Shown here: positions 11,060 to 49,210 of the stretch, one piece after another | How the letters are laid out: every line of letters begins with the position of its first letter | Position numbering within the stretch: position 1 is the stretch's first letter | Source: Ruminococcus sp. | GTDB taxonomy: Bacteria > Bacillota > Clostridia > Oscillospirales > Ruminococcaceae | Assembly: GCF_024691275.1 (NCBI RefSeq) | Contig: NZ_JAILNU010000084.1 | Location: forward strand, 25,356 to 89,355 | Direction of reading: 5' to 3' | Length of the DNA stretch: 64,000 nucleotides | Position numbers and translations under genes: made by a program | Notes under the pieces: generated by a model | Database searches by the model: none | What the model was told of the DNA's origin: nothing | What the model saw: the letters and a program-made list of their open reading frames with translations, nothing else

Positions 11060-13252
11060 TTATAATGACTCAATGATCTTTTTCTCGATCATGAATGCGT
11101 CAATGATCGTGATGCCGTCGCCTGTATAGCATATATCAGCGTTATATAATCCTTCCTTTGTCAGCGTATACCTGTCAGGGTAGGCAATGTATTGAATGAT
11201 AGTTATTACATCACTCATATCAACTATGCCGTCGCAGTTTGCATCGCCGCTTCTCGGTTTAAATATAGCGATCTTGCTCACGAACTGCTTGATCGCTCTG
11301 ATGCCTGTACTTGCGTTCTCGTCTCCGTCATCGGCGATAGCATCGGCTGCCGCTAATTCTTCAGGAAGTACATAGTGAGCGTAGTCGTATACATCAACTT
11401 CGGGGTGAGCCTTGTAGTATCTTGCGATCTCGTTGACAACTTCGTCCTCCTGTATGCCGAGTTCCTTTACTACGTAAAGCTCCACACATACAGTATCTGC
11501 AAGGTCGCCGCTCATGCGGTTGTTGTTGAAGTCGCAGTTCTGATAGAAATTCTTCTTTATATCCTGATCTATAGCATCAGGACTGAGAACAGACTCTGCG
11601 TAGCTGAGATTCAGCATAAGGTCTGCGTATATGTAATCCTCGAAGTCTATCCTGCCGTTCATGTCGATATCGGGTTCGGGGAGAAGACCGTTCTTTACAT
11701 TGCGGTAATACTCAGTGAATTGTTCGCTGATATCGTCCTTTGTGAAGTTGTAACGCGGATCGTACACATCGGGGCTGTAGTAGTGCATATATTCTTTAAC
11801 GTACCTGACGATATCGTCTGCGCCGATACCGTTTCGCATATCGGAGTAGAACATTTTGTCTGCATAACAGTATTCAAAAGCGTTGTGCTCAAAGAAATAT
11901 GTGCAGTAGTAGTCGAGGTACAGACCGTTAGATGAGAAGTAAAGGCTTGCTTTCTCATCGTTTGCATTCAGCTTTTCCCATTCCTTTGCGGTAAAGCTGC
12001 TTGTATCAGATGAGCCTGATTTTTGGAGCTCATAGAACGTTATCAGGTCATAGAGGTCTTCTATGGTATATTTTCCGTCGCCGTTGGTATCGGTTATCAG
12101 CGTTCCGTCGTCTATGAGGTCAAAGAAGAGGGAATAGCTTCTGTAGGCTCTCATGCTTCTGTCGGAAAGTATGGATATGAAATCGGCAGCATAGCTGTCG
12201 CTTTCTGATACGTTCGTATCGCTGTTATCCGTATATTTATCGGGACAGCTGCAATAATAGCAGCACGGAGAGAAATATTCGGGTTCGAGTGTATAATAGG
12301 TGAAGAAATAGTCTGTTGCGAGGAAAAGATCGTCGTGATCGCCGCCAAGAACTCCGTCGAGGTCAAGATCACCGTATTTTTCGTAATTCTTCATTATGCT
12401 GTCAGGTATCTGAGCAGCTGCGTCTTTTTCGCTTGTATATGTCATAAAGGAACGGTAATATGCATAAACGTCAAAAATGTCGTATTTCCCGTCACTGTTA
12501 AGGTCGAGGATACGCTCATTCCTGTGCAGCCATTCCATTTTTTCGGTATTGCTTGAAGGTTCACCGCTGAAATATTCATTATGCTTCTGTTCAAGAAATC
12601 CGCTGAGATCGGTTACTGCGCTGCCCGGGATAGACGATGTGTGCGAAGCTGTTACAAGGGAAGCGGCAAATGCCGATATCTTCTTCATTGAAAAGCTTCT
12701 TTCGTCGTGGGGCTTCGTGGAAGCGGGCGGTGAAGTTGTTATGCTGCTGATGTCAGGTGCAGATACCCCGTTATTGGCTGAGGTACTGACATCAGCAGTA
12801 ACAATAGAGGTCGTGACGTTTTTCACAGTATTATTGTACTGTGAAGGTGAAGCTGTATCCGTGTGGTCTTGCGCTGTTTCAGCTGCGGAGAGTGTGATAC
12901 CTACAGAAGTCACTTCAGATAATGACGTGGTAACATTAGCATTGTGGGCAGCTACGCTATTTGTTGTTACAGCAGGCTGAGGTGTTCTGTTGTCCGATAC
13001 AGATGTTTTGACAGCCGACGTATTATCAACTGTATCGTTAACATTAGCTCCAGTCTGTATCTTCAATGCTCCGAATATACCAACCCCGGCTACTATAGCG
13101 GCAGCCGCTGCGGATATTCTGTATATAACAGGCACAGTTCTTTTGCGCTTTTCTGTATAGGACTCTCCGACCTGTCTGAAAAAATCTTCTTTATGCTGTG
13201 ATCCGGGGAAATTGAATGAATCCCTGATAGCATTTTCTATTTTTTTATTCAA
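11060..13252 (-). CDS. Putative trans-membrane anti-sigma factor with Ca-binding repeats and C-terminal dockerin
   Basis: A 730-residue protein encoded 12 bases after an ECF sigma gene. The start is TTG with AGGAGG eight bases upstream. Residues 1-43 are a short charged cytoplasmic part (anti-sigma role inferred). One membrane helix (44-64) and a Ser/Thr-rich linker (75-185) follow. A second hydrophobic patch starts at Met189 and reads like a signal peptide (MKKISAFAASLVTA). The extracellular part carries several EF-hand or dockerin-like loops (DLNSDGKYD near 250, DLDLDGVLG near 296, DTNGDGKYT near 388, DMNGRIDFED), a Cys cluster near 330, and a full type I dockerin at about 665-730 with paired GDANCDGIVD and NADICYTGDG loops. 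No classical zinc-finger anti-sigma domain is seen. Confidence 0.7.
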   Translation of the reverse strand: MNKKIENAIRDSFNFPGSQHKEDFFRQVGESYTEKRKRTVPVIYRISAAAAAIVAGVGIFGALKIQTGANVNDTVDNTSAVKTSVSDNRTPQPAVTTNSVAAHNANVTTSLSEVTSVGITLSAAETAQDHTDTASPSQYNNTVKNVTTSIVTADVSTSANNGVSAPDISSITTSPPASTKPHDERSFSMKKISAFAASLVTASHTSSIPGSAVTDLSGFLEQKHNEYFSGEPSSNTEKMEWLHRNERILDLNSDGKYDIFDVYAYYRSFMTYTSEKDAAAQIPDSIMKNYEKYGDLDLDGVLGGDHDDLFLATDYFFTYYTLEPEYFSPCCYYCSCPDKYTDNSDTNVSESDSYAADFISILSDRSMRAYRSYSLFFDLIDDGTLITDTNGDGKYTIEDLYDLITFYELQKSGSSDTSSFTAKEWEKLNANDEKASLYFSSNGLYLDYYCTYFFEHNAFEYCYADKMFYSDMRNGIGADDIVRYVKEYMHYYSPDVYDPRYNFTKDDISEQFTEYYRNVKNGLLPEPDIDMNGRIDFEDYIYADLMLNLSYAESVLSPDAIDQDIKKNFYQNCDFNNNRMSGDLADTVCVELYVVKELGIQEDEVVNEIARYYKAHPEVDVYDYAHYVLPEELAAADAIADDGDENASTGIRAIKQFVSKIAIFKPRSGDANCDGIVDMSDVITIIQYIAYPDRYTLTKEGLYNADICYTGDGITIIDAFMIEKKIIESL

Positions 13253-13264
13253 GCCGTTCGCCTC

Positions 13265-13714
13265 CTATCCAATAAAACTTTTCTTGAGTTCGTCAAGTAT
13301 TCTTTTTATCCTGCGACCCATTTTAAACCTTGAAATACCGTATATTTCCGCAAGTACTCCGACAGGGACATCGTTTATGTAACGAAGTACAACGAGCTCT
13401 CTGTCGTCTTGTGAAAGCGCTTTTATTGCGTTTCCGAGCGCCACATTCGTAAGGATACAATCCTCATAATCGTTATCGTCAGGGATATTTTCGGTCAGTT
13501 CGTCCGATGTTTTTTTACGGAAATGATCCGCACACAGATTGCCGGCTATAGTATACAGATATCTTAATTTCTTGTTCATGTCTTTGTAGTTCGAGCTTTC
13601 CAAAAAACGAAGGAAGGTCTCCTGCGTCAGATCTTCAGCCGCTGAACGGTCATGAACTTTAAAAAAACAATATCGGAAAATCTTTTCGTACTGATCTTTC
13701 AGATCTTCTGACAC
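13265..13714 (-). CDS. ECF-type RNA polymerase sigma factor
   Basis: A 149-residue sigma-70 family protein of ECF size. Region 2: YRCFF-like segment (EKIFRYCFFKVHDRSAAEDL) and QETFLRFL. Region 4: ALSQDDRELVVLRYINDVP and the helix-turn-helix GVLAEIYGISRFKMGRRIKR. The start is GTG 13714 with AAAGGAGG seven bases upstream; an earlier in-frame TTG overlaps that ribosome site and is rejected. It is followed at once by its membrane partner, the usual order for a sigma/anti-sigma operon. Target promoters are not known. Confidence 0.9.
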   Translation of the reverse strand: MSEDLKDQYEKIFRYCFFKVHDRSAAEDLTQETFLRFLESSNYKDMNKKLRYLYTIAGNLCADHFRKKTSDELTENIPDDNDYEDCILTNVALGNAIKALSQDDRELVVLRYINDVPVGVLAEIYGISRFKMGRRIKRILDELKKSFIG

Positions 13715-13807
13715 GATACGACCTCCTTTCAATATGATTAACGTTTCAGAAAAGGTGTTTGAGCAAACAAAATGTAAATAAATTGTGAATTTTCTGCATT
13801 TTGTTAC

Positions 13808-15033: not shown

Positions 15034-17529
15034 ATGAACAAAAAAACACTAAAGCGTTACGCTGCTGTTTTAGCAGCGTGTACAGTCATGGCAGCAGCTG
15101 TACCTGCTTCAAGCGCACCTGTTTTTGCTGCCAAGAATCTCATAAGCAATTCAACATTTGAGAGCGGCACAAAGGACTGGGACACTTACAAAGAAAGCGG
15201 CGGTGTTTGTTCACTCAGCACAAAGGACGGACAGCTTGCACTTAAAGTATCCAATGTGGGCAAGGTGAATTATGCAGTTCAGGTATACTATGACATAGTT
15301 CCGCTCTACAAGAACGGTGTTTATCGCCTGAAATACGATATTTCAAGCTCTGTTGACCGCTACATTGAGGGTATGATCCAGCAGAACGGCGGTACTTACC
15401 AGGCTTATACATGGAAGGGCCTTGAACTCACATCAACTCCGCAGACTGTAGATTACAAGTTTACAATGAAGCAGGATACCGATATCATGGCTAAGCTCGT
15501 TTTCAACTGCGGTATCCAGGAGAAGCATGAGGGAGAGCTTCCCGAGCATACTATATTCATTGACAACGTTTCACTGGAGCTTATCGACGACAGCGAAGTA
15601 GACTACAACGCTGACCGTCCGTATGCGCCTTCTATAAATATAAATCAGGTAGGCTACAGACCTGACAGCCAAAAGATCGCAGTATTTCGTGATGTTAAAG
15701 ACCAGACCGAGTTCAAGGTCGTAAATGCTGAAACAAAGGAACCGGTCTACACAGGAAAACTGACAAATAAAAATGATAACAAAAGCGCTGATGAAATAAA
15801 CTGGACAGGAGATTTTTCATCAGTAAAAACAGCAGGAAAGTATTACATCTCCTGTGAGGGACTTGATGATTCATATACATTCGAGATCGGAAACAAGGTA
15901 TATTCAAATCTTCTTGATGACAGCGTTAGAATGCTCTATTTACAGCGCTGCGGCGTTAAGGTAGAGGACAAGGAGTTCGGTCATGAGGCTTGCCATACCT
16001 CGCTTGCAACGATTTATGGTACAGATAAAAAGATCGACGTTAGCGGCGGTTGGCACGATGCAGGCGACTACGGAAGATATGTTGTGCCTGCTGCTAAGGC
16101 TGTTGCAGACCTTCTCTACGCTTACGATGCTGCACCTGAGCTCTACAGCGACAGTATCGGTATCCCGGAGAGTGGAAACGGTACTCCCGATGTTCTCGAC
16201 GAGGCTCGTTTCGAGCTGGAGTGGATGCTGAAAATGCAGGCTGAGGACGGCGGAGTTTATCATAAGGTATCCTGCGCGACTTTCCCTGCATATGTTATGC
16301 CTACAAAGGAAACAGGCGAGCTTATCGTAACTCCTGTCAGCTCTACTGCTACAGCTGATTTCTGCGCTTCAATGGCTCTTGCTTCCGAGTTCTACAAGAA
16401 GTACGATGCTGATTTCGCAAAGAAGTGTCTGGACGCAGCTGAAAAGTCATGGGCATGGCTCGAAAAGAATCCAAGCTTTATATTCACCAATCCCAAGGAC
16501 ATCGTTACAGGTGACTACGGCGACAGGAGCGACAAGGACGAGCGCTATTGGGCTGCTGTTCAGATGTACCGCGCAACAGGCGAGAATAAGTACATCTCCG
16601 ATGTGAGCAAAATCTGCACGGGCCTTGACTGGTCAACGGTAGGAGATTACGGCAATATCGCTCTTCTCACTATGAAAGATGCAGATAAGACATCTGAGCT
16701 TTATAAAAAGGCTAAGGAAGCTGTTCTCGATCAGGCTGACAGCATGGTAAAGAACGTTAATGCTTCAAGCTACGGTTCGTCTATCACGACCTACAACTGG
16801 GGCAGCAACATGACTGTAGCTAACAGCGGCATTATCCTCGGTCTTGCAGACCAGCTTACAGGTGAGCACAAGTATATGAACGCTGCTAATGCTCAGCTTG
16901 ATTACCTCCTCGGTACAAACCCTGTTGCGACCTGCTTCGTTTCGGGCTACGGTACAGTTTCACCTGAACATCCTCACCACCGTCCTTCAATGGCAGTAGG
17001 CCATGCTATGAAGGGTATGCTCGCAGGCGGCGTTAACGAGAACCTCGAAGACAGCGCTGCAAAGGCATACTGCAAGGAGTCTCCGGCTGCAAAGTGCTAT
17101 ATCGACAATTCCGAGAGCTACTCTACAAATGAGATCACTATCTACTGGAACTCTCCGCTCACATACCTTCTCTCTCTTACAGAGAAGACAGTTGCTTCTG
17201 AGCCGCTGGTAACAACTACCACATCGACTACAACTGTAACTACAACTACAACTACTGTTACGACATCAACAGTTTCAAATATACCGAAGGATGTGGTATA
17301 CGGTGACGCAAACAACGATAAACAGGTCGATATGGCTGATGTTGTTCTCATTATGCAGTCCCTTGCAAATCCTGACAAGTATGGTATAAACGGAACAGAC
17401 GAGCATCATATCACAAAGCAGGGTCTCGACAATGCTGATGTCAACAAGACAGGCGACGGCGTTACCAATGCAGATGCGCTTTCGATACAGCAGTATCTTC
17501 TCGGGTTACTCAAAAAGCTTCCTGAATAA
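15034..17529 (+). CDS. Dockerin-bearing GH9 endoglucanase (CBM4-Ig-GH9-dockerin)
   Basis: An 831-residue secreted cellulase. In order: signal peptide (1-33), CBM4/9-like carbohydrate-binding module (34-185, NLISNSTFESG start), Ig-like CelD_N domain (about 203-290, INQVGYRPDS), GH9 catalytic domain (about 295-715), Thr-rich linker (about 722-750) and type I dockerin (757-831). Catalytic features are visible: GWHDAGDYG with Asp342 and Asp345 as base candidates, HHRPS at 648, and the DNSESYSTNE block with Glu700 as proton donor. The dockerin has two Ca-binding loops (GDANNDKQVD and NADVNKTGDG) for docking to a scaffoldin cohesin. It hydrolyses beta-1,4-glucans outside the cell. GAGAGGG precedes the ATG. 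Confidence 0.95.
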   Translation: MNKKTLKRYAAVLAACTVMAAAVPASSAPVFAAKNLISNSTFESGTKDWDTYKESGGVCSLSTKDGQLALKVSNVGKVNYAVQVYYDIVPLYKNGVYRLKYDISSSVDRYIEGMIQQNGGTYQAYTWKGLELTSTPQTVDYKFTMKQDTDIMAKLVFNCGIQEKHEGELPEHTIFIDNVSLELIDDSEVDYNADRPYAPSININQVGYRPDSQKIAVFRDVKDQTEFKVVNAETKEPVYTGKLTNKNDNKSADEINWTGDFSSVKTAGKYYISCEGLDDSYTFEIGNKVYSNLLDDSVRMLYLQRCGVKVEDKEFGHEACHTSLATIYGTDKKIDVSGGWHDAGDYGRYVVPAAKAVADLLYAYDAAPELYSDSIGIPESGNGTPDVLDEARFELEWMLKMQAEDGGVYHKVSCATFPAYVMPTKETGELIVTPVSSTATADFCASMALASEFYKKYDADFAKKCLDAAEKSWAWLEKNPSFIFTNPKDIVTGDYGDRSDKDERYWAAVQMYRATGENKYISDVSKICTGLDWSTVGDYGNIALLTMKDADKTSELYKKAKEAVLDQADSMVKNVNASSYGSSITTYNWGSNMTVANSGIILGLADQLTGEHKYMNAANAQLDYLLGTNPVATCFVSGYGTVSPEHPHHRPSMAVGHAMKGMLAGGVNENLEDSAAKAYCKESPAAKCYIDNSESYSTNEITIYWNSPLTYLLSLTEKTVASEPLVTTTTSTTTVTTTTTTVTTSTVSNIPKDVVYGDANNDKQVDMADVVLIMQSLANPDKYGINGTDEHHITKQGLDNADVNKTGDGVTNADALSIQQYLLGLLKKLPE

Positions 17530-22250: not shown

Positions 22251-25200
22251 TTATTTCTCTTTCTGAGCGTAATATTCCTTGATAGGAAGAACCTCGCCTG
22301 TGCAGGTTGAAGCATAAGCGTAGTATTTTAAAGCTTTTGAAGCGTCAACAGAGTTTATAAAACCGTCTTCGTTGATATCAGCAGCCTTTTTCTGGCTTTC
22401 TGTGAAGTCTGAATTTTTATTTGTGGAGATCATAGCGTAATGCTTGAGGATAAGCGATGCATCAACAGAGTTTATAAGACCGTCATTGTTTACATCTCCG
22501 AGAGCGTTTTCTGTGGGTTGAGTAACTGTTGAAGTAGTAACGGCTGTAGTTGTAGTCTGGGTAGAAGTTGTCGCGGACTTTGTTGCAGTTGATGTTGTGC
22601 TTGTTGATGTGGAAGTTGATACAGGCTTTGTTGTAGTTGATGTGGAAGTTGAAACACGCTTTGTTGTGGTAGATGTTGTGCTTGTTGATGTGGAAGTTGA
22701 AACAGGCTTTGTTGTAGTTGATGTTGCCTTAGTTGATGTAGAAGTTGAAACACGCTTTGTTGTGGTAGATGTTGTGCTTGTTGATGTGGAAGTTGAAACA
22801 GGCTTTGTTGTAGTTGATGTTGCCTTAGTTGATGTGGAAGTTGAAACAGGCTTTGTTGTAGTTGATGTTGTCTTAGTTGATGTGGAAGTTGAAACAGGCT
22901 TTGTTGTGGTAGATGTTGCCTTAGTTGTTGTAGAAGTTGATGCAGGCTTTGTTGTGGTTGTAGTAGTTTTTGCGGTTGTCGATGTAGTAACAGTAGTTAC
23001 TTTACTCGGATCGGCAAACTTGACCTTATCTTCGATAATGCCGTTGTTTGCGCCGATCTTTACATTTTTCCATTCTTCCTCAGTGCCCTGATACAATACA
23101 TTTATGAGTGCATCACAGCCTCTGAAAGCATTTCTTCCGATAGTTTCGACCTCTTTTGGGATAGAGATGGTTTCAACACCTTCCAGTGAATAGAATGCAT
23201 TGCTTGGAATGCTCTTTCCGCCTGAAATGCTGATCTTTTTCAGAGAAGTCGGGATATCTCTTCTCTCACCGAAATAGCCGACTGCTGTATAAGTTGCGTC
23301 TTCTATAGGATCAAAGAAATAATCAATTACCTGAGCAGATGCGTTCTCTTCATTTACCGCATCGAGTGAGAAGCCTGCAAATGGGAGAGTGAGCTCTTCC
23401 AGTGATGAACAGCCGCTAAGTATATATTTGCCGATATTTTTGCTGCCGCCGTTTATAACAGCCTTTTTAATTGAAGAACAGCCTGAGAAAGCTCTTGTTC
23501 CGATATTGAGCACAGAGCTCGGAACAGTTATCTCGGTTATTGATGTGCAGTCTGCAAATGCTTCATTGCCGATAGATGTAACTCCCTCAGGGATAGAAGC
23601 GGTTGTTATCTTATCACAGCCCTTAAATGCATTTGAGCCGATAAATGTAACTTTTGAAGGTATACTGATGCTTGTGAGCGACTTGCAGTTCATGAAAGCA
23701 CGGTTTCCGATAGATGTTACAGTTTCAGGCAGCTTTATTGTCTCGACACCTGTGAGCTCGTAGAAGGCATTATCAGGTATCTTTTCGCCGCCTGTAATGG
23801 TGATGCTCTTGAGCGAGATCGGGATATTTCTTATGTCATCGTAATAGCTGTTGGAAACATAGGTCTTTTCCTCAACCTCATCAAGGAAGAGATTGCCAAG
23901 GTATGCGCTTTCAACGTTGCCTGCAACGTCCTTTGCATTGAAGCCTGCAAATGGAAGAGTAAGAGCTTCGAGAGAAGTACACTTATTGAAGATGTAGTTG
24001 CCGATGCTGACCTTATCTCCGTTGATAACAGCTTTTTTGAGAGCTGTACAGCCTGAGAAAGCATAATTGCCGATAGTTTCAATAGTAGCAGGGATATTCA
24101 GATCTGTTATCGAGCTGCAATTCTCGAAAGCATATGCGCCTATGTATGTTGTTGAAGCGTTGATCTTTAGTTCGGGAGTATTTGTGCAGTTCTGGAAAGC
24201 ATTCGAGCCTATATATGTACACTTGCTCGGCATCTTGAAGCTTGTGAGCGATGTACAGTTTGTGAAGGCACGGTTGTCGATCGCTGTGATATCATCAGGG
24301 ATATTGATAGTTTCAATGCCTGAGAGATTATAGAAAGCGTTTACGGAAATTCGCTTGCCGCCTGTGATATTTATAGTTTTGAGCGAGATCGGGATACCGT
24401 GAGTTTCGCCGCGGTAGCCTGTTACGGTATAAGTTTTTTCTTCCACCTCGTCATAGAAAAGATCGCCTACATATGAAGCAGTCTTTTCGTCGTTCACGTC
24501 AGCTTCTTTTGTGCCTGCGAACGGAAGTGTCAGTTCTTCAAGGGCAGTACATTTGTTGAATGCGTAATTGCCTATACCGTCGCTGCCGCCGTTGATGACT
24601 GCCTTTGTAAGGGAAGTGCAGCCGGAGAATGCGTAATTGCCGATAGTAAGCACACTTTCAGGGATAGTTAACTCCTTGATAGCTGTACAGCCGTTGAAGG
24701 CATATGCCCCGATATGTTCTATCTCGGAAGATAATACCGTATTTGTGAGAGCTGTGCAGTTTTCAAAAGCGTGTTCGCCGAGAGTTTTGATATTTGGTGA
24801 CAGCTGGCAGCTGGTGAGAGATGCGCAGTTGTTGAAAGCATAGATTCCGATGTTCTGGACAGGATCGGCAAGTACGATCTTCTTTACGCCTGTGAGATTG
24901 TAAAATGCAGATGCCGGTATCTTGCTTCCGCCGAGGATAGTGATGCTTGTCAGTGATCTCGGTACGTATCTTATATCGCCGTAGTAGCTGTTTACACGAT
25001 ACATGAGCGGATCTTCCTTAACTTCGCCGTCCACTATGACTTCATTGGAGGATCTGTTGAAGAAGTTTGCAATGAAATTGAACGAATTGTTCTTTTCTTC
25101 TTCAACACTTTCGAGACTGAGACCTGCAAACGGAAGTGAGAGCTCCTCCAATGCAGTACAGTCCTGGAACATTCCCTCGGATATGCCGAGGCTTCCGCCC

Positions 25201-26090
25201 TTTATGACTGCTTTTTTCAGGGCAGTACAATTTGCGAATACAGTGTCCTTTATCTGAGTAATTGTTTCGGGAACGGTTATCTCGGTAAGACCTTTACAAT
25301 CAGCAAAGACGCTGTTTTCGAGAGTTTTTACCGTGCTTGGTATAGATATGCTCTTGAATGCCTTACAGCCGCTGAAAGCGTATGCGCCAACGGAATGTAC
25401 GCTCTCGGGGATAACGATGTTTCCTGCCTTTGGAGCTTCTTTGCCGCTTAAAATGATGCTTTCAAGGGAAGAACAGTTTTCAAAGGTGTGGTTCTTGATG
25501 CTTGCAACTGTATCAGGTATGGTAACAGTTTTCAGGTTTGAACAACCATAGAAAATGTACGAACCGATGTCTGTGATGCTCTGGTCGGGAGCTGCGGGAT
25601 CGTTTGCAATAACAACGTTCTTTACGAACTGTGGCTTCTTGAACGGACACTTGGTGTAGTTGTTCATATTGCCTTGACCTGTGATATACATATATCCGTC
25701 CATATAGAGAGTATATGTAACAGTGTTGCCTATTTTGCCGACTTCCAGTATATCTTGTTCGTCGTAGCCGTTGTTGGTGTTTGTCGAAGTTGTGGTCGTT
25801 GAAATAGCAGCTGTAGTAGTTGTACTTTTTGTGGATTTAGGAGCAGAAGATGTAGTAGTAAGGCTGGTACTGGATATCGGTGCAGTGGTAGTCGTTGTTG
25901 TACTCACAGTCGGACTCGGGACAGATGTGGTGGTTGTGTCAGCAGCATATTTGTAAGCCACAGATGTGTTGTATTCAGTAAGAGCAGCATCTGCGGATTG
26001 CTGATATGATGCAGCAGGGCAGCTGCCTGAAAAAACAGCCGTAGCACACATGGCTGTGCTGAGAGCGGCAGCCGTTATCTTTTTCAGCAT
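22251..26090 (-). CDS. Giant BspA-type leucine-rich repeat protein with dockerin
   Basis: A 1279-residue exported protein. The signal peptide is at about 1-27; FSGSC near residue 24 could also be a lipobox. A Thr/Ser linker covers 50-105. The bulk (about 150-1025) is LRR_5/BspA repeats (for example SIGNRAFMNCKSLTSISIPS), arranged in at least three super-repeats of about 200 residues, each holding an insert with ITGG...IPxNAFY. A 16-residue Thr/Ser/Lys-Pro repeat region follows (about 1045-1195). A C-terminal type I dockerin has GDVNNDGLIN and ADINEDGFIN loops. BspA-type repeats bind host or plant polymers in other bacteria. A binding role within a dockerin-cohesin complex is inferred. Confidence 0.9.
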   Translation of the reverse strand: MLKKITAAALSTAMCATAVFSGSCPAASYQQSADAALTEYNTSVAYKYAADTTTTSVPSPTVSTTTTTTAPISSTSLTTTSSAPKSTKSTTTTAAISTTTTSTNTNNGYDEQDILEVGKIGNTVTYTLYMDGYMYITGQGNMNNYTKCPFKKPQFVKNVVIANDPAAPDQSITDIGSYIFYGCSNLKTVTIPDTVASIKNHTFENCSSLESIILSGKEAPKAGNIVIPESVHSVGAYAFSGCKAFKSISIPSTVKTLENSVFADCKGLTEITVPETITQIKDTVFANCTALKKAVIKGGSLGISEGMFQDCTALEELSLPFAGLSLESVEEEKNNSFNFIANFFNRSSNEVIVDGEVKEDPLMYRVNSYYGDIRYVPRSLTSITILGGSKIPASAFYNLTGVKKIVLADPVQNIGIYAFNNCASLTSCQLSPNIKTLGEHAFENCTALTNTVLSSEIEHIGAYAFNGCTAIKELTIPESVLTIGNYAFSGCTSLTKAVINGGSDGIGNYAFNKCTALEELTLPFAGTKEADVNDEKTASYVGDLFYDEVEEKTYTVTGYRGETHGIPISLKTINITGGKRISVNAFYNLSGIETINIPDDITAIDNRAFTNCTSLTSFKMPSKCTYIGSNAFQNCTNTPELKINASTTYIGAYAFENCSSITDLNIPATIETIGNYAFSGCTALKKAVINGDKVSIGNYIFNKCTSLEALTLPFAGFNAKDVAGNVESAYLGNLFLDEVEEKTYVSNSYYDDIRNIPISLKSITITGGEKIPDNAFYELTGVETIKLPETVTSIGNRAFMNCKSLTSISIPSKVTFIGSNAFKGCDKITTASIPEGVTSIGNEAFADCTSITEITVPSSVLNIGTRAFSGCSSIKKAVINGGSKNIGKYILSGCSSLEELTLPFAGFSLDAVNEENASAQVIDYFFDPIEDATYTAVGYFGERRDIPTSLKKISISGGKSIPSNAFYSLEGVETISIPKEVETIGRNAFRGCDALINVLYQGTEEEWKNVKIGANNGIIEDKVKFADPSKVTTVTTSTTAKTTTTTTKPASTSTTTKATSTTTKPVSTSTSTKTTSTTTKPVSTSTSTKATSTTTKPVSTSTSTSTTSTTTKRVSTSTSTKATSTTTKPVSTSTSTSTTSTTTKRVSTSTSTTTKPVSTSTSTSTTSTATKSATTSTQTTTTAVTTSTVTQPTENALGDVNNDGLINSVDASLILKHYAMISTNKNSDFTESQKKAADINEDGFINSVDASKALKYYAYASTCTGEVLPIKEYYAQKEK
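22610..22965 (-). repeat. 48-bp tandem repeats encoding Thr/Ser/Lys-Pro linker
   Basis: About seven imperfect 48-bp units, each encoding a 16-residue KPVSTSTSTK-type block. One 48-bp step is seen between GGCTTTGTTG at 22801 and at 22849. KRV and KPV variants alternate, and at least one unit is shortened. The tract is a likely site of length variation. Confidence 0.85.
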
Positions 26091-39412: not shown

Positions 39413-40633
39413 TTACTGACCTTCGTTATTTGACGGAGCTCTGTTTGCTTCCTCAAATTTTACAGCATGATCGTTTTTCTCGGCATAAAATTCATATTCG
39501 AGATTTCTCCATTCATGAGAGTTGTATTCATTGATGTAGGTTTCGTAAGCTGAGTTGTCACTAAAGTTTTTCTCGCCTTTTTCTATTACCATTATTCCGT
39601 CTTTGTAATAACCTGAGTAGTTGTATTCAGATAATACATTGAAGGTATTATCAGCTGATACTTCGACGGTCTGGAGATATTCATATCCTTCTTTTGCACC
39701 TAAGCTGATAAGATTCTCCCTGTGGCATACTTTGATGGTACCTGTCATTATATATGACACTTCGGGAGTACCTGTCCATAAGTGAAGGTTTACTTTTGCC
39801 TGAACATATTCGCTGCCGTCATAAACGAACATGAGCGTGATATTTGAGGAGATCGTCTGACTGCTTACGAATAATTCAGGAATACCGTCGTCGTTGATAT
39901 CAAATGATGCAGTCTGGATATCCCACATAGCAGTCTCTTCCATTTCATCTTTGCCGTTTATAGTATAGCAGATGCTTTCATGCATGATCCTGTTCATTGC
40001 ACGGGATCTTGCAGCTTCGATCTCCTCATCGGATACATAGCTGCTGTCGGGATGAGGGTTTTTGTAAGGCTTCAGATCGGAAGCTGCAATCGGTGCAACA
40101 GTAGTTACAGCAGGGGTATCTGCCGCAGCTGTAGTAGTATCTGCTGCATTGTCCGCAGAAGTTGCCACAGTGGTTTTTGTAATAACGTTTGAAGTAGTTT
40201 TCGCAGTATTTTTTGCAGTTGTGTTTACAGTAGTGTTTTCTTCTTCCGAAGTTGCCGATACAGTCGTAGTTGGTGTAGTAACAGGATCGGGGATATTCGG
40301 GCCCGAAGGCTTGTTGCGGTTGAGCATGAAAATGCTTCCTCCAACGATAACAAGTGCTGCTGCCGAGCATAAAGCAGTGTATATTACATGGGATATTTTT
40401 TTGCGGTTGTATGTTTCAACTCCTGTAACGGAATCATTATCATCGGACGTTTCAGAATTGCTGCTGTTGAGCGCATTGAGCTGCTTTTTGCTGTCTTCGT
40501 ACTTTTTCATCGCATTTTTCAGCATTCTGTCACGAGCGTCCTTGTCTATATTCATATTATCAGCACCTATCTTTTCAACAGTGTTCATATCTGCATTTTC
40601 CAGTACATTGAAATCAATTTTCTTGTTATTCAT
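39413..40633 (-). CDS. Putative trans-membrane anti-sigma factor with Thr-rich linker
   Basis: A 406-residue protein whose ATG overlaps the stop of an ECF sigma gene by ATGA, so translation is coupled. The cytoplasmic part (1-80, acidic and helical) would bind the sigma factor. One membrane helix follows (82-104), then a Pro/Thr-rich stalk (107-185) and an extracellular domain (about 190-390) with DINDDGIPELFV, an FG-GAP/EF-hand-like calcium loop. Same plan as the protein at 11060 but without a dockerin. The anti-sigma role is inferred from operon and topology. Confidence 0.7.
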   Translation of the reverse strand: MNNKKIDFNVLENADMNTVEKIGADNMNIDKDARDRMLKNAMKKYEDSKKQLNALNSSNSETSDDNDSVTGVETYNRKKISHVIYTALCSAAALVIVGGSIFMLNRNKPSGPNIPDPVTTPTTTVSATSEEENTTVNTTAKNTAKTTSNVITKTTVATSADNAADTTTAAADTPAVTTVAPIAASDLKPYKNPHPDSSYVSDEEIEAARSRAMNRIMHESICYTINGKDEMEETAMWDIQTASFDINDDGIPELFVSSQTISSNITLMFVYDGSEYVQAKVNLHLWTGTPEVSYIMTGTIKVCHRENLISLGAKEGYEYLQTVEVSADNTFNVLSEYNYSGYYKDGIMVIEKGEKNFSDNSAYETYINEYNSHEWRNLEYEFYAEKNDHAVKFEEANRAPSNNEGQ

Positions 40634-41205
40634 ATATTACCCTCCTTCATATCGTAGCCTTCTGCTGCAAGAAACTCTTTAAGTTTTTTTATAGCCCTGC
40701 TGCATCTCATTCTGACAGATGCAGGGGACATAGAGTGCTTGTCGGCTATCTCACTTGAGTTCATATTGTAATAGTATTTTTGAAGTATTATAGTGGAATC
40801 AGGATCGCCGAGACTTTTTATCGCACGAAGCAGTGTGCTGCGCATATCGCTGCGCTCTGCGTTTTCTTCCACACGTTCGGTATCGGCGATCTCGTTGGTT
40901 TCGTCTTCGATATAAACGGTGCCGCTGTTTCGTGTAAGGTTTCGGTACATCTGTATAGCTTTTCGGCTTGCTATAGTTCCGATGAAGCCTTTAAGGTCAC
41001 CGTCGAATTTTCCATTGCGGTCATAGTTTATAAATACTGCGGAAAAGACATCTCCCACACATTCTTCTATATCCTCTCTGCTGCCGCAGCTTCTCAGTTT
41101 ATTGTAAACTATTGCGTATACATAGCTGAGGTATTCGTCAAACAGTGCAGTCTGAGCTGTACGAGGATCTTTGTTGTACATATTACGGTATTCATTATCA
41201 GTCAT
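40630..41205 (-). CDS. ECF-type RNA polymerase sigma factor
   Basis: A 191-residue sigma-70 family protein. Region 2: LSYVYAIVYNKLRSCGSREDIEE and DVFSAVFINYDR. Region 4: SLGDPDSTIILQKYYYN and the helix-turn-helix SSEIADKHSMSPASVRMRCSRAIKKL. ATG 41205 with AAAGGAG upstream is used; an upstream in-frame ATG at 41265 lacks a ribosome site. Followed by its membrane partner. Confidence 0.9.
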   Translation of the reverse strand: MTDNEYRNMYNKDPRTAQTALFDEYLSYVYAIVYNKLRSCGSREDIEECVGDVFSAVFINYDRNGKFDGDLKGFIGTIASRKAIQMYRNLTRNSGTVYIEDETNEIADTERVEENAERSDMRSTLLRAIKSLGDPDSTIILQKYYYNMNSSEIADKHSMSPASVRMRCSRAIKKLKEFLAAEGYDMKEGNI

Positions 41206-41256
41206 AGAACCACTCCTTTGTTTATTTAAAAAAGCCTGAGCGCTGTAAGTGCTTTC

Positions 41257-41284
41257 ATAATACATACTTGCACAAACGTGTCAA
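41257..41284 (-). promoter_or_regulatory. Promoter of second ECF sigma operon
   Basis: Minus strand: TTGACA (41279-41284), 16-base spacer, TATTAT (41257-41262). Confidence 0.7.
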
Positions 41285-47343: not shown

Positions 47344-48468
47344 TTACGGAGAAGGCAACTGGGGGTGCAATGGCAGCGGAGCATCTGTCGGAGGGTGTGC
47401 TTCTTTCTGCGGATCGGCAGGAGCTTCGATGTCTTGCTTTGGTTCGGGTTCGCTGTGGAGAGACGCAGGACGCATTCCCTCAAGTGTGATGGGTTTGTTC
47501 TGCTGTATATCTTTAAGCGCATCTTCTATGATCGAGAGCGGCTTTTTATGCTCCTCAGGCAGCTTTTCTCCTTCGGCAGGAGCCGGCGGCTTAGGAGGCT
47601 CGGCAGCTTCATCGGGCTTGGGAGCTTCGGGGCCTGCACCCTTTTCAGGTGCGGCAGGCTTTTCGGGAGCCTTTGGCGGCTCAGGATCAGATGGTGGAGC
47701 AGGAGGTTCATGTTTAGTGTCTGGATTTGGTGTGACAGGCTGATGCTGTAATGGAGGATCAGCAGGTGCAGGTGGTGTTACGTCAGCGGGAGCAGGTGGC
47801 TCGGGAGACTTTACGCTGTCCTTTTCAGGCTTTGGCGGTTCCGGAGCAACTGCTTCCTTTGCAGGATCAGGTTTTGCGATCGTTACTTTTTCCTTTGCGG
47901 ACGGTGCAGGCGGATCAAGTCCGCGGACTTTGACATTTATGTCTGAATTCTCTTTTTCAAGGTCGGATTTGAACGTGTTGTAGCCGTCGTTTTTCTCCGA
48001 ATCAACATAGATATTTACCGTGTCGCCGCTGGATATCATGCCCTTTTCTTTTTCAAGTTCGATTATCTCATTTGCTGCGGTGAGTTTATCCTTCCCTTTG
48101 CCGTCGTAGTCCTTTAGGAGTTCTTTTCCATCTTCGTCATCGCTCTTTATTTCAATTACCTTGCCATTTCGGTTTATAGACATTCTGATCTTTGCGTCAG
48201 ATGAGATAAGGATAGTTGAATACGGTTTCAGGTTATGTGTGTAGTACAGAGTACCTGCTGTTGCAAGCACTCCGATACAGGCAGCAGCTGCTGCGAAGCG
48301 GGTCACATATATTTTTATACGTCCTGAACGCTGCTGTTCGTCCATGATTATCGGGTTTGTGACGGACTGCCCGACTTTATAGTGAAGATTGGCAGCATTG
48401 ACAAAACGTGAATCCTCGTCCATTAGTATTGCGTATCCTTCGTGACATTCCATAACGATATATTTCAT
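47344..48468 (-). CDS. rsgI: RsgI-like trans-membrane anti-sigma-I factor with Pro-rich extracellular tail
   Basis: A 374-residue protein. Residues 1-50 are the RsgI N-terminal anti-sigma domain (MKYIVMECHEGYAILMDED, FVNAANLHYKVGQSV). A membrane helix spans 53-75. Residues 80-185 correspond to the conserved RsgI extracellular middle domain (STILISSDAKIRMSINRNGKV). The usual Asn-Pro of that region (DxNPS) is replaced by SSDAK. Residues 185-374 are Pro-rich (PEPPKPEKD, PPAPADP), with no carbohydrate-binding module as in Clostridium thermocellum RsgI proteins. It follows sigI after two bases. Role: holds SigI at the membrane until an outside signal arrives. Confidence 0.88.
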   Translation of the reverse strand: MKYIVMECHEGYAILMDEDSRFVNAANLHYKVGQSVTNPIIMDEQQRSGRIKIYVTRFAAAAACIGVLATAGTLYYTHNLKPYSTILISSDAKIRMSINRNGKVIEIKSDDEDGKELLKDYDGKGKDKLTAANEIIELEKEKGMISSGDTVNIYVDSEKNDGYNTFKSDLEKENSDINVKVRGLDPPAPSAKEKVTIAKPDPAKEAVAPEPPKPEKDSVKSPEPPAPADVTPPAPADPPLQHQPVTPNPDTKHEPPAPPSDPEPPKAPEKPAAPEKGAGPEAPKPDEAAEPPKPPAPAEGEKLPEEHKKPLSIIEDALKDIQQNKPITLEGMRPASLHSEPEPKQDIEAPADPQKEAHPPTDAPLPLHPQLPSP

Positions 48469-48470
48469 AT

Positions 48471-49187
48471 TTATTCACCACCTTTTAGTACCTGCATGAT
48501 GTGTCCGCGCATGATCTCGTAGCCGTTCGTACATATGAGCAGAACTGCCACAAGATAACGCCTGTGTCTTTCAAGTGATTTTCTTTCGACTTTTGCTCCC
48601 TCTGCGAGCTTTGCGATCGGGACGCGCTTAGTCCTGAGGAATTCCTCAAGTATATCGGGATTTTTCCGCGCATAAGAGATAGCCTTTTGGCAGATTTCGA
48701 GAGTTCTGTGCTGACGCGGAGAATTATCAGCAACATCGCTCATTGAAACGCCAAAGCTCTCCATCTGAGCGGAGAGTTCCGAGATCTCCTGCTGAGTAGC
48801 CTCGCGGAGCTCGTTTTCGGCATATGTATCGTGTTCATCACGGATAGTATCTTTCAGGTCTGCTTTATCGTCTTCGGAAACATCGAGCGATATCTGCCCT
48901 TTGTTCCTTTTTTCTTTTCGGTAATTGTCTATCAGGCGGTTTTTTATCTGCAAAGCTGCAAATTTCAGGAAAGAACCGCGCAGTTTTGAGTAATTACGTA
49001 TCGACTCGTAAAAAGCGAACATGGCGATACTAAGCTCGTCATCGCTCTGATTGGGAGGACGATTGAGAAATTTGGCAGTTTCCGACTTTATAAAAGGCAT
49101 ATAAGCTGAGATAAGCTCGTCTGCCGCGTGGCTGTCGGTTTTAGCCTTGTAGACCCGGGATATGATTTGATGCGCATCAGAAGTCAT
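48471..49187 (-). CDS. sigI: RNA polymerase sigma factor SigI
   Basis: A 238-residue SigI-family sigma factor. N-terminal domain: AYMPFIKSETAKFL, DDELSIAMFAFYESIRNY, GSFLKFAALQIKNRLIDNYRKEKR, ISLD. The C-terminal SigI domain (about 140-235) ends in KLAEGAKVERKSLERHRRYLV. ATG 49187 with GGGGGTGG upstream is preferred to the in-frame ATG 49202, which would lie almost on the transcription start. SigI controls heat response or wall synthesis in bacilli and cellulosome genes in C. thermocellum. Its own promoter has the SigI-type motif, so autoregulation is likely. Confidence 0.92.
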   Translation of the reverse strand: MTSDAHQIISRVYKAKTDSHAADELISAYMPFIKSETAKFLNRPPNQSDDELSIAMFAFYESIRNYSKLRGSFLKFAALQIKNRLIDNYRKEKRNKGQISLDVSEDDKADLKDTIRDEHDTYAENELREATQQEISELSAQMESFGVSMSDVADNSPRQHRTLEICQKAISYARKNPDILEEFLRTKRVPIAKLAEGAKVERKSLERHRRYLVAVLLICTNGYEIMRGHIMQVLKGGE

Positions 49188-49210
49188 ATTTGCCACCCCC
49201 ATGTATAAAT

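Follow-up and report, generated by a model that had tools for sequence, protein, structure and literature searches.

In Ruminococcus, an ECF sigma factor gene is paired with a downstream gene for a predicted membrane protein with a dockerin at its C-terminus, the plug by which cellulose-digesting complexes are held together. The pair was analyzed in a 64,000-nucleotide stretch of one genome (the window), where it lies on the minus strand, and it is a family, not a one-off: the same arrangement occurs as 26 pairs in 26 genomes, which represent at least 26 species of the genus. We propose that the membrane protein, here called DOC, retains the sigma factor at the membrane, with release that would depend on the occupancy of its dockerin by a cohesin of the cell's own scaffoldins. 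Judged from sequence and structure models, we give this proposal roughly even chances of being correct. For the question of how cellulosomes are controlled in Ruminococcus, dockerin-tipped putative anti-sigma factors supply concrete genes and a promoter. If the proposal is true, control would follow the assembly state of the machine and not its substrate, which is a different logic.

Layout of the gene pair

The sigma factor gene (13265..13714, minus strand) encodes 149 residues. Sigma70_r2 (41.9 bits) and Sigma70_r4 (26.6 bits) both score above their Pfam cut-offs and sigma70-ECF scores above its NCBIfam cut-off; with sigma-70 regions 2 and 4 and its small size, the product is an ECF sigma factor. 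After a gap of 12 bases comes the open reading frame of DOC (11060..13252, minus strand; 730 residues), a putative anti-sigma factor with a predicted transmembrane helix, and this order is kept in the 26 group members. Seven homologues of DOC (P0001-P0007) share 58-67% identity with it along its full length; two are called hypothetical protein by a source and five are nameless.

Five parts can be distinguished along DOC, all on the minus strand. Residues 1-41 (13130..13252) form a predicted cytoplasmic N-terminus, likely sigma-binding, in which F13, P16, K21, and F24 are conserved. The predicted transmembrane helix spans residues 43-65 (13058..13126), has a hydropathy of 1.94 at residues 42-60, and is also helical in the structure model. 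It is followed by a stalk that is Ser/Thr-rich in sequence and modeled at pLDDT < 50 (residues 66-188; 12689..13057), by an EF-hand-rich helical module (residues 213-627; 11372..12616) with loops at 12470-12505, 12056-12091, and 11636-11671, and by the dockerin (residues 668-729; 11066..11251) with calcium-loop sequences at 11210-11245 and 11099-11137. A sequence-only reading of the window had described a sigma gene, 12 bases, and a single-pass protein with a stalk, EF-hand-like loops, and a dockerin, and sequence and predictions confirm that layout. What it lacked was the internal start discussed below, the module of about 415 residues as a unit, and the at least four N-terminus/sigma types that have the ectodomain in common.

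Distribution in Ruminococcus

A sigma homologue (E <= 1e-15) is present in 74 of the 125 genomes of the genus. There are 104 sigma matches listed in the genus, and the partner was read for 66 sigma genes of the subfamily, the window's included: 26 partners end in a dockerin and 40 have another ectodomain. In a tree of these 66 sigma factors, a single branch separates the 26 with dockerin partners from all others (support 100/99), and it recurs in 100% of 200 bootstrap trees. Looking for the same pair in other Ruminococcus genomes, as the sequence-only reading had suggested, thus recovered it as one group. The number 26 is a lower bound that leaves out a likely further dockerin-type copy (G126:C164). 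By Pfam, 24 of the 26 members have a Dockerin_1 domain, and the window's own dockerin scores just below the Pfam cut-off. Partner reading was confined to the genus; a sigma homologue at E <= 1e-30 occurs in 13 of 297 genomes drawn from the family, spread over 8 of 126 genera.

The family can also be approached from the membrane protein. An ECF sigma gene lies directly upstream in 25 of 31 loci with homologues of DOC (L031-L061), a share that is biased upward by the choice of these loci as best full-protein matches. At six of the 31 (L040-L042, L044, L059, and L060) the homologue is a solitary protein with what appears by eye to be a signal-peptide-like start. A contig scan with the single DOC protein found no relative in a set from which genomes near the window's own are possibly absent.

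The N-terminus and membrane topology

The conserved N-terminal motif is not confined to partners with a dockerin. Among all 66 partners, the first F is found in 62, P in 60, K in 58, and the second F in 66, and distances between N-termini track those between sigma factors (rho = 0.635; 0 of 500 permutations as high). Because partners with different ectodomains have the motif in common, the N-terminus belongs with the sigma factor, and residues 1-41 are likely to be the part that binds it. A model of these residues contains helices at 3-12 and 19-29, with low confidence (pLDDT about 40-56).

Homologous ectodomains also occur with three further types of N-terminus, and each of these has a distinct type of ECF sigma factor next to it: a type named for contig C43 (12 genes), one for C112 (5 genes), and one for loci L035/L036 (3 genes). 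With at least four N-terminus/sigma types joined to a homologous ectodomain, the ectodomain behaves as a separable cassette. The genome of the window alone holds at least three such pairs, in the window, C43, and C112. The C43 protein has no Pfam dockerin match at E <= 0.01 but matches a profile built from the dockerins of the 26-member group at 5e-23. The family member at L035 (6503-10375), which lies beside another sigma type, is 1291 residues long and has 13 EF-hand-like loop matches.

These patterns bear on the possibility that DOC is no anti-sigma factor and is a dockerin-bearing membrane anchor merely co-transcribed with the sigma gene. Such an anchor would account for the finding that DOC matches no known anti-sigma domain in Pfam or in NCBIfam, even with E values as high as 1. 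The zinc-binding anti-sigma (ZAS) domain, for example, has an H-C-C zinc motif in its inner domain; residues 1-41 of DOC contain no Cys, and Pfam at the same limit finds no ZAS domain. However, a mere anchor would not be expected to have an N-terminal motif that follows the sigma subfamily whatever the ectodomain, nor would each of four sigma types be expected to have its own N-terminus beside a homologous ectodomain. We consider this explanation very improbable and continue to treat DOC as a putative anti-sigma factor.

Positive residues before the first helix suggest that the stalk, EF-hand module, and dockerin are outside the cell. The hydropathy of this helix reaches the threshold of 1.6 in 20 of the 26 group members and falls below it in 6. 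A second hydrophobic segment follows the stalk and is above the threshold in four members (L106, L114, L117, and L048). If this segment crossed the membrane, then the dockerin would be inside the cell.

The EF-hand module and the dockerin

The ectodomain is modeled with a mean pLDDT of 84.5 and a pTM of 0.76. As modeled, the C-terminus resembles solved R. flavefaciens group 1 dockerins, and the duplicated calcium-loop/helix fold of a type I dockerin is present, in agreement with the dockerin fold that the sequence-only reading had claimed for the C-terminal repeats. Two of the group 1 dockerins (5m2o and 5m2s) were solved with ScaB cohesin 3. These dockerins occur on enzymes, whereas that of DOC is on a putative anti-sigma factor.

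The neighboring GH9 cellulase (15034-17529) has a dockerin against which the window's scores 142; with the other class compared, the score is no higher than 46. This enzyme class is found in 23 of the 26 group members. The dockerins of L043, L108, and L052 belong to the other class and are most similar to the one on the LRR protein encoded in the window (22251-26090). Since L043 is the window's sister in the sigma tree, the dockerin class changed recently there while a dockerin was kept.

The module of about 415 residues between the stalk and the dockerin is well modeled, and EF-hand-like loops occur in the ectodomain far more frequently than chance. With the whole ectodomain as the query, Foldseek and VIA-align gave no convincing match to the module beyond the dockerin. 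The matches from Foldseek, those to the dockerin included, all fall short of E 0.001. The abundance of loops and the well-formed module would suit a calcium or envelope sensor, in which sensing falls to the EF-hand module and the dockerin does no more than hold the protein on the cell-surface cellulosome; the promoter element TTCAYA-N5-TTTACA, whose likeness to a WalR box is taken up below, would suit it as well. Such loops also belong to dockerins, however, and a terminal dockerin is present in 26 of 26 group members, where a change of class means replacement by another dockerin. We therefore regard a calcium or envelope sensor as decidedly unlikely, and sensing through the dockerin remains the preferred reading.

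A candidate internal start before the ectodomain

A candidate internal start lies at 12617..12705 (minus strand), where a weak Shine-Dalgarno (SD)-like sequence, GAAAGAAG, precedes an ATG at 12686-12688 (Met189) and a signal-peptide-like segment. Such a combination can be found between the stalk and the module in 44 of 46 genes across the four types; L102 and L052 have no candidate and are outside the 44, and the chosen codon is doubtful in L049, L055, and L061. An SD match of at least 5 bases occurs in 26 of the 44, compared with 6.1 expected from synonymous codon exchange (maximum 14 in 1000), in statistics that treat related sequences as independent. None of 42 non-dockerin partners has an internal SD site of this kind. 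Median anti-SD duplex energies are -12.1 for the internal sites, -12.9 for the first start of each of these 44 genes, -16.5 for 65 sigma starts, and -2.2 for 656 other in-frame ATGs. The internal site is strong (-9.5 or below) in 35 of the 44 genes, and a strict AxA motif is present in 20. The window's site is weak (-5.2), as are those of L101, L055, L032, L103, L105, L112, and L061.

The high frequency and strength of these sites raise the possibility of a fused operon, in which residues 1-188 would be an anti-sigma part that senses something else, while the dockerin part, translated from the internal start, would be a secreted cellulosome protein in its own right that shares the frame by coincidence. 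The presumably secreted solitary homologues at 6 of the 31 loci are in keeping with this arrangement, as is an unfused order of sigma, anti-sigma, and separate dockerin gene at C40 of this genome. It is harder to reconcile with the weak site in the window and with the long frame through the stalk, which is open in 26 of 26 aligned members. In P0005-P0007, moreover, the internal Met is changed to Ile but the dockerin is intact, so the dockerin is retained there as part of a full-length protein. On balance a fused operon seems unlikely to us. Under the preferred reading of DOC as a dockerin-tipped anti-sigma factor, strong sites in most genes, a weak one here, and the lost start in P0005-P0007 together suggest that much of the family likely makes two products, so that many relatives may also make a secreted form, while the window's gene would make the full-length product only or nearly so. 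The internal start was accordingly dropped as a feature of the window's gene and is kept as a feature of the family.

A conserved putative promoter block

A putative promoter block precedes the sigma gene at 13734..13789 (minus strand). It consists of TTCACAATTTATTTACA at 13773-13789, a -35-like GCTCAA at 13759-13764, a 15-base spacer, and a -10-like CGTTA within 13734-13743. The consensus upstream of the sigma genes is TTCAYA-N5-TTTACA, GCWCA, about 15 bases, CGTYA (CAGTYA in some), and then a ribosome-binding site. As a strict pattern, the first element precedes 20 of 25 dockerin-type sigma genes and 23 of 40 others, and both core elements are found 14-15 bases apart before 14 of 25 and 25 of 40, respectively; L101, whose contig breaks off within the sigma gene, does not enter these counts. 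This conserved block fits a self-controlled sigma operon. TTCACA-N5-TTTACA at 13773-13789 also resembles, on the other strand, the consensus of the WalR/YycF box, and the element might link the operon to cell-wall control.

The 8 genomes contain 14 occurrences of the compound promoter pattern and none of the reversed pattern. Six occurrences are directly before a dockerin-type sigma gene and four are before a dockerin-serpin gene (C40 of this genome and G073 checked with Pfam; G018 and G071 assigned by like N-termini). Two of the remaining occurrences precede proteins without a Pfam match and two precede no clear gene. A relaxed pattern (one mismatch) gave no clear sign of a wider regulon in the 8 genomes, with 17 matches (8 sigma operons and 9 others) and 6 in the reversed control. 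At L175 and L179 the compound block stands before two proteins that begin with a signal-peptide-like segment and match nothing in Pfam at E 0.01; these are possible further targets of the sigma factor. Locus L200 (G000:C40:46500-52500) has the order sigma, 299-residue anti-sigma-like protein, dockerin protein, dockerin-serpin, and second sigma with its partner, and the compound block is found before the serpin gene.

Cellulosome genes in the same genome

A cellulosome of the cell's own, which the sequence-only reading had assumed, finds support in the genome of the window. A ScaE orthologue (48% identity) and a CttA-like gene are present, together with the end of a ScaB-like gene that is cut off by the edge of contig C108; their order is that of the complete cluster of G034. 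The dockerin of DOC is of the same class as that of the neighboring cellulase. We assigned the gene names from the gene order in PMC4081043. We infer that the organism is a cellulosomal Ruminococcus. Pfam counts one cohesin in this genome versus at least 8 in many relatives, a low number that is explained at least partly by the contig break and by a ScaE cohesin that Pfam misses. A lack of scaffoldins like that of R. albus, which the single Pfam cohesin could suggest, was rejected in view of ScaE, CttA, and the truncated ScaB gene. ScaA as a whole and the cohesins of ScaB are missing from this assembly, and the presumed partners of the dockerin are therefore visible only in relatives. A search of this genome for CapA, whose gene flanks the scaffoldin cluster in G034, found none.

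The single Pfam cohesin belongs to a protein of 231 residues at L092 (1279-1974), which starts like a lipoprotein and has no dockerin. Two tandem proteins at L211 (1370-3315) and a protein of 1857 residues at L212 (1996-7569) match the cohesin part of ScaE, and they look like further cohesin carriers missing from the Pfam list. Dockerin genes beside the pair were considered as a general rule and rejected; they are present in this genome, in G034, and in a few more, and not at most loci.

A possible mechanism

The proposed mechanism starts from the observed adjacency of the sigma and DOC genes, which is kept in the 26 pairs. Residues 1-41, to judge by their co-conservation, would bind the sigma factor while the stalk, EF-hand module, and dockerin face outside. 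Because the dockerin is of the neighboring cellulase's class, we propose that the two draw on a common pool of cohesins, for which the dockerin of DOC would compete with enzymes, thereby reporting free cohesin sites. Docking could then alter the tension on the stalk, or protease access to it, and free the sigma factor; this step is the least certain. Once free, the sigma factor would activate its own operon through the promoter block; its targets may also include other exported proteins of the cellulosome, among them the dockerin-serpin. The sequence is compatible with docking either releasing or retaining the sigma factor. The idea that a dedicated sigma/anti-sigma set counts free cohesin sockets via a membrane dockerin in cellulosome-building Ruminococcus, in many species with a secreted competing dockerin copy that is produced from the internal start of that gene and tunes the count, is tentative and we hold it to be rather doubtful.

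Comparison with known systems

Among known systems, the closest are the SigI/RsgI pairs, which sense carbohydrates in Clostridium thermocellum and Acetivibrio (PMC3413522, PMC11557425). As far as the accessible parts of these papers describe them, they likewise pair a sigma factor with a membrane protein whose short N-terminus lies inside the cell and whose C-terminal binding module lies outside, and they occur in cellulosome producers. In layout only, DOC is RsgI-like, with its C-terminal dockerin as the outer module after a single helix. Unlike those pairs, the window's pair has an ECF-type sigma factor, and neither RsgI_N (PF12791) nor RsgI_M (PF23750) is matched in DOC, where Dockerin_1 is the sole Pfam match at E up to 1. 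The outer module also differs, being a dockerin, which is a cellulosome part, in DOC and a carbohydrate-binding module in RsgI.

Dockerin proteins that are not enzymes are known from Ruminococcus and include serpin, LRR, and transglutaminase-like proteins (PMC2930009, PMC4300822, PMC5301203). Like DOC, these secreted proteins have no glycoside hydrolase, and they have a dockerin at either end; unlike DOC, they are described as cellulosome or surface components, and none is given a sigma partner in the accessible parts of these sources. The sequence-only reading knew of no described system with such a layout. We also found no description of a dockerin on an anti-sigma factor in the accessible text of the literature on RsgI and dockerin catalogues (PMC12484212, PMC3413522, PMC6507058, PMC11557425, PMC4081043, PMC2930009, PMC5301203, PMC4300822, PMC5814915, PMC3573020, PMC5742341, PMC6118326).

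Two other sigma loci were noticed in the window. At 39413-41265, another ECF sigma gene is beside a protein with a helix-plus-stalk-like arrangement in which a Pfam dockerin was not found. A true RsgI/SigI-like pair is present at 47344-49202, with RsgI_M above its cut-off (E 6.7e-13), RsgI_N below its cut-off (E 2.6e-4), and sigma region 2 in the neighboring protein.
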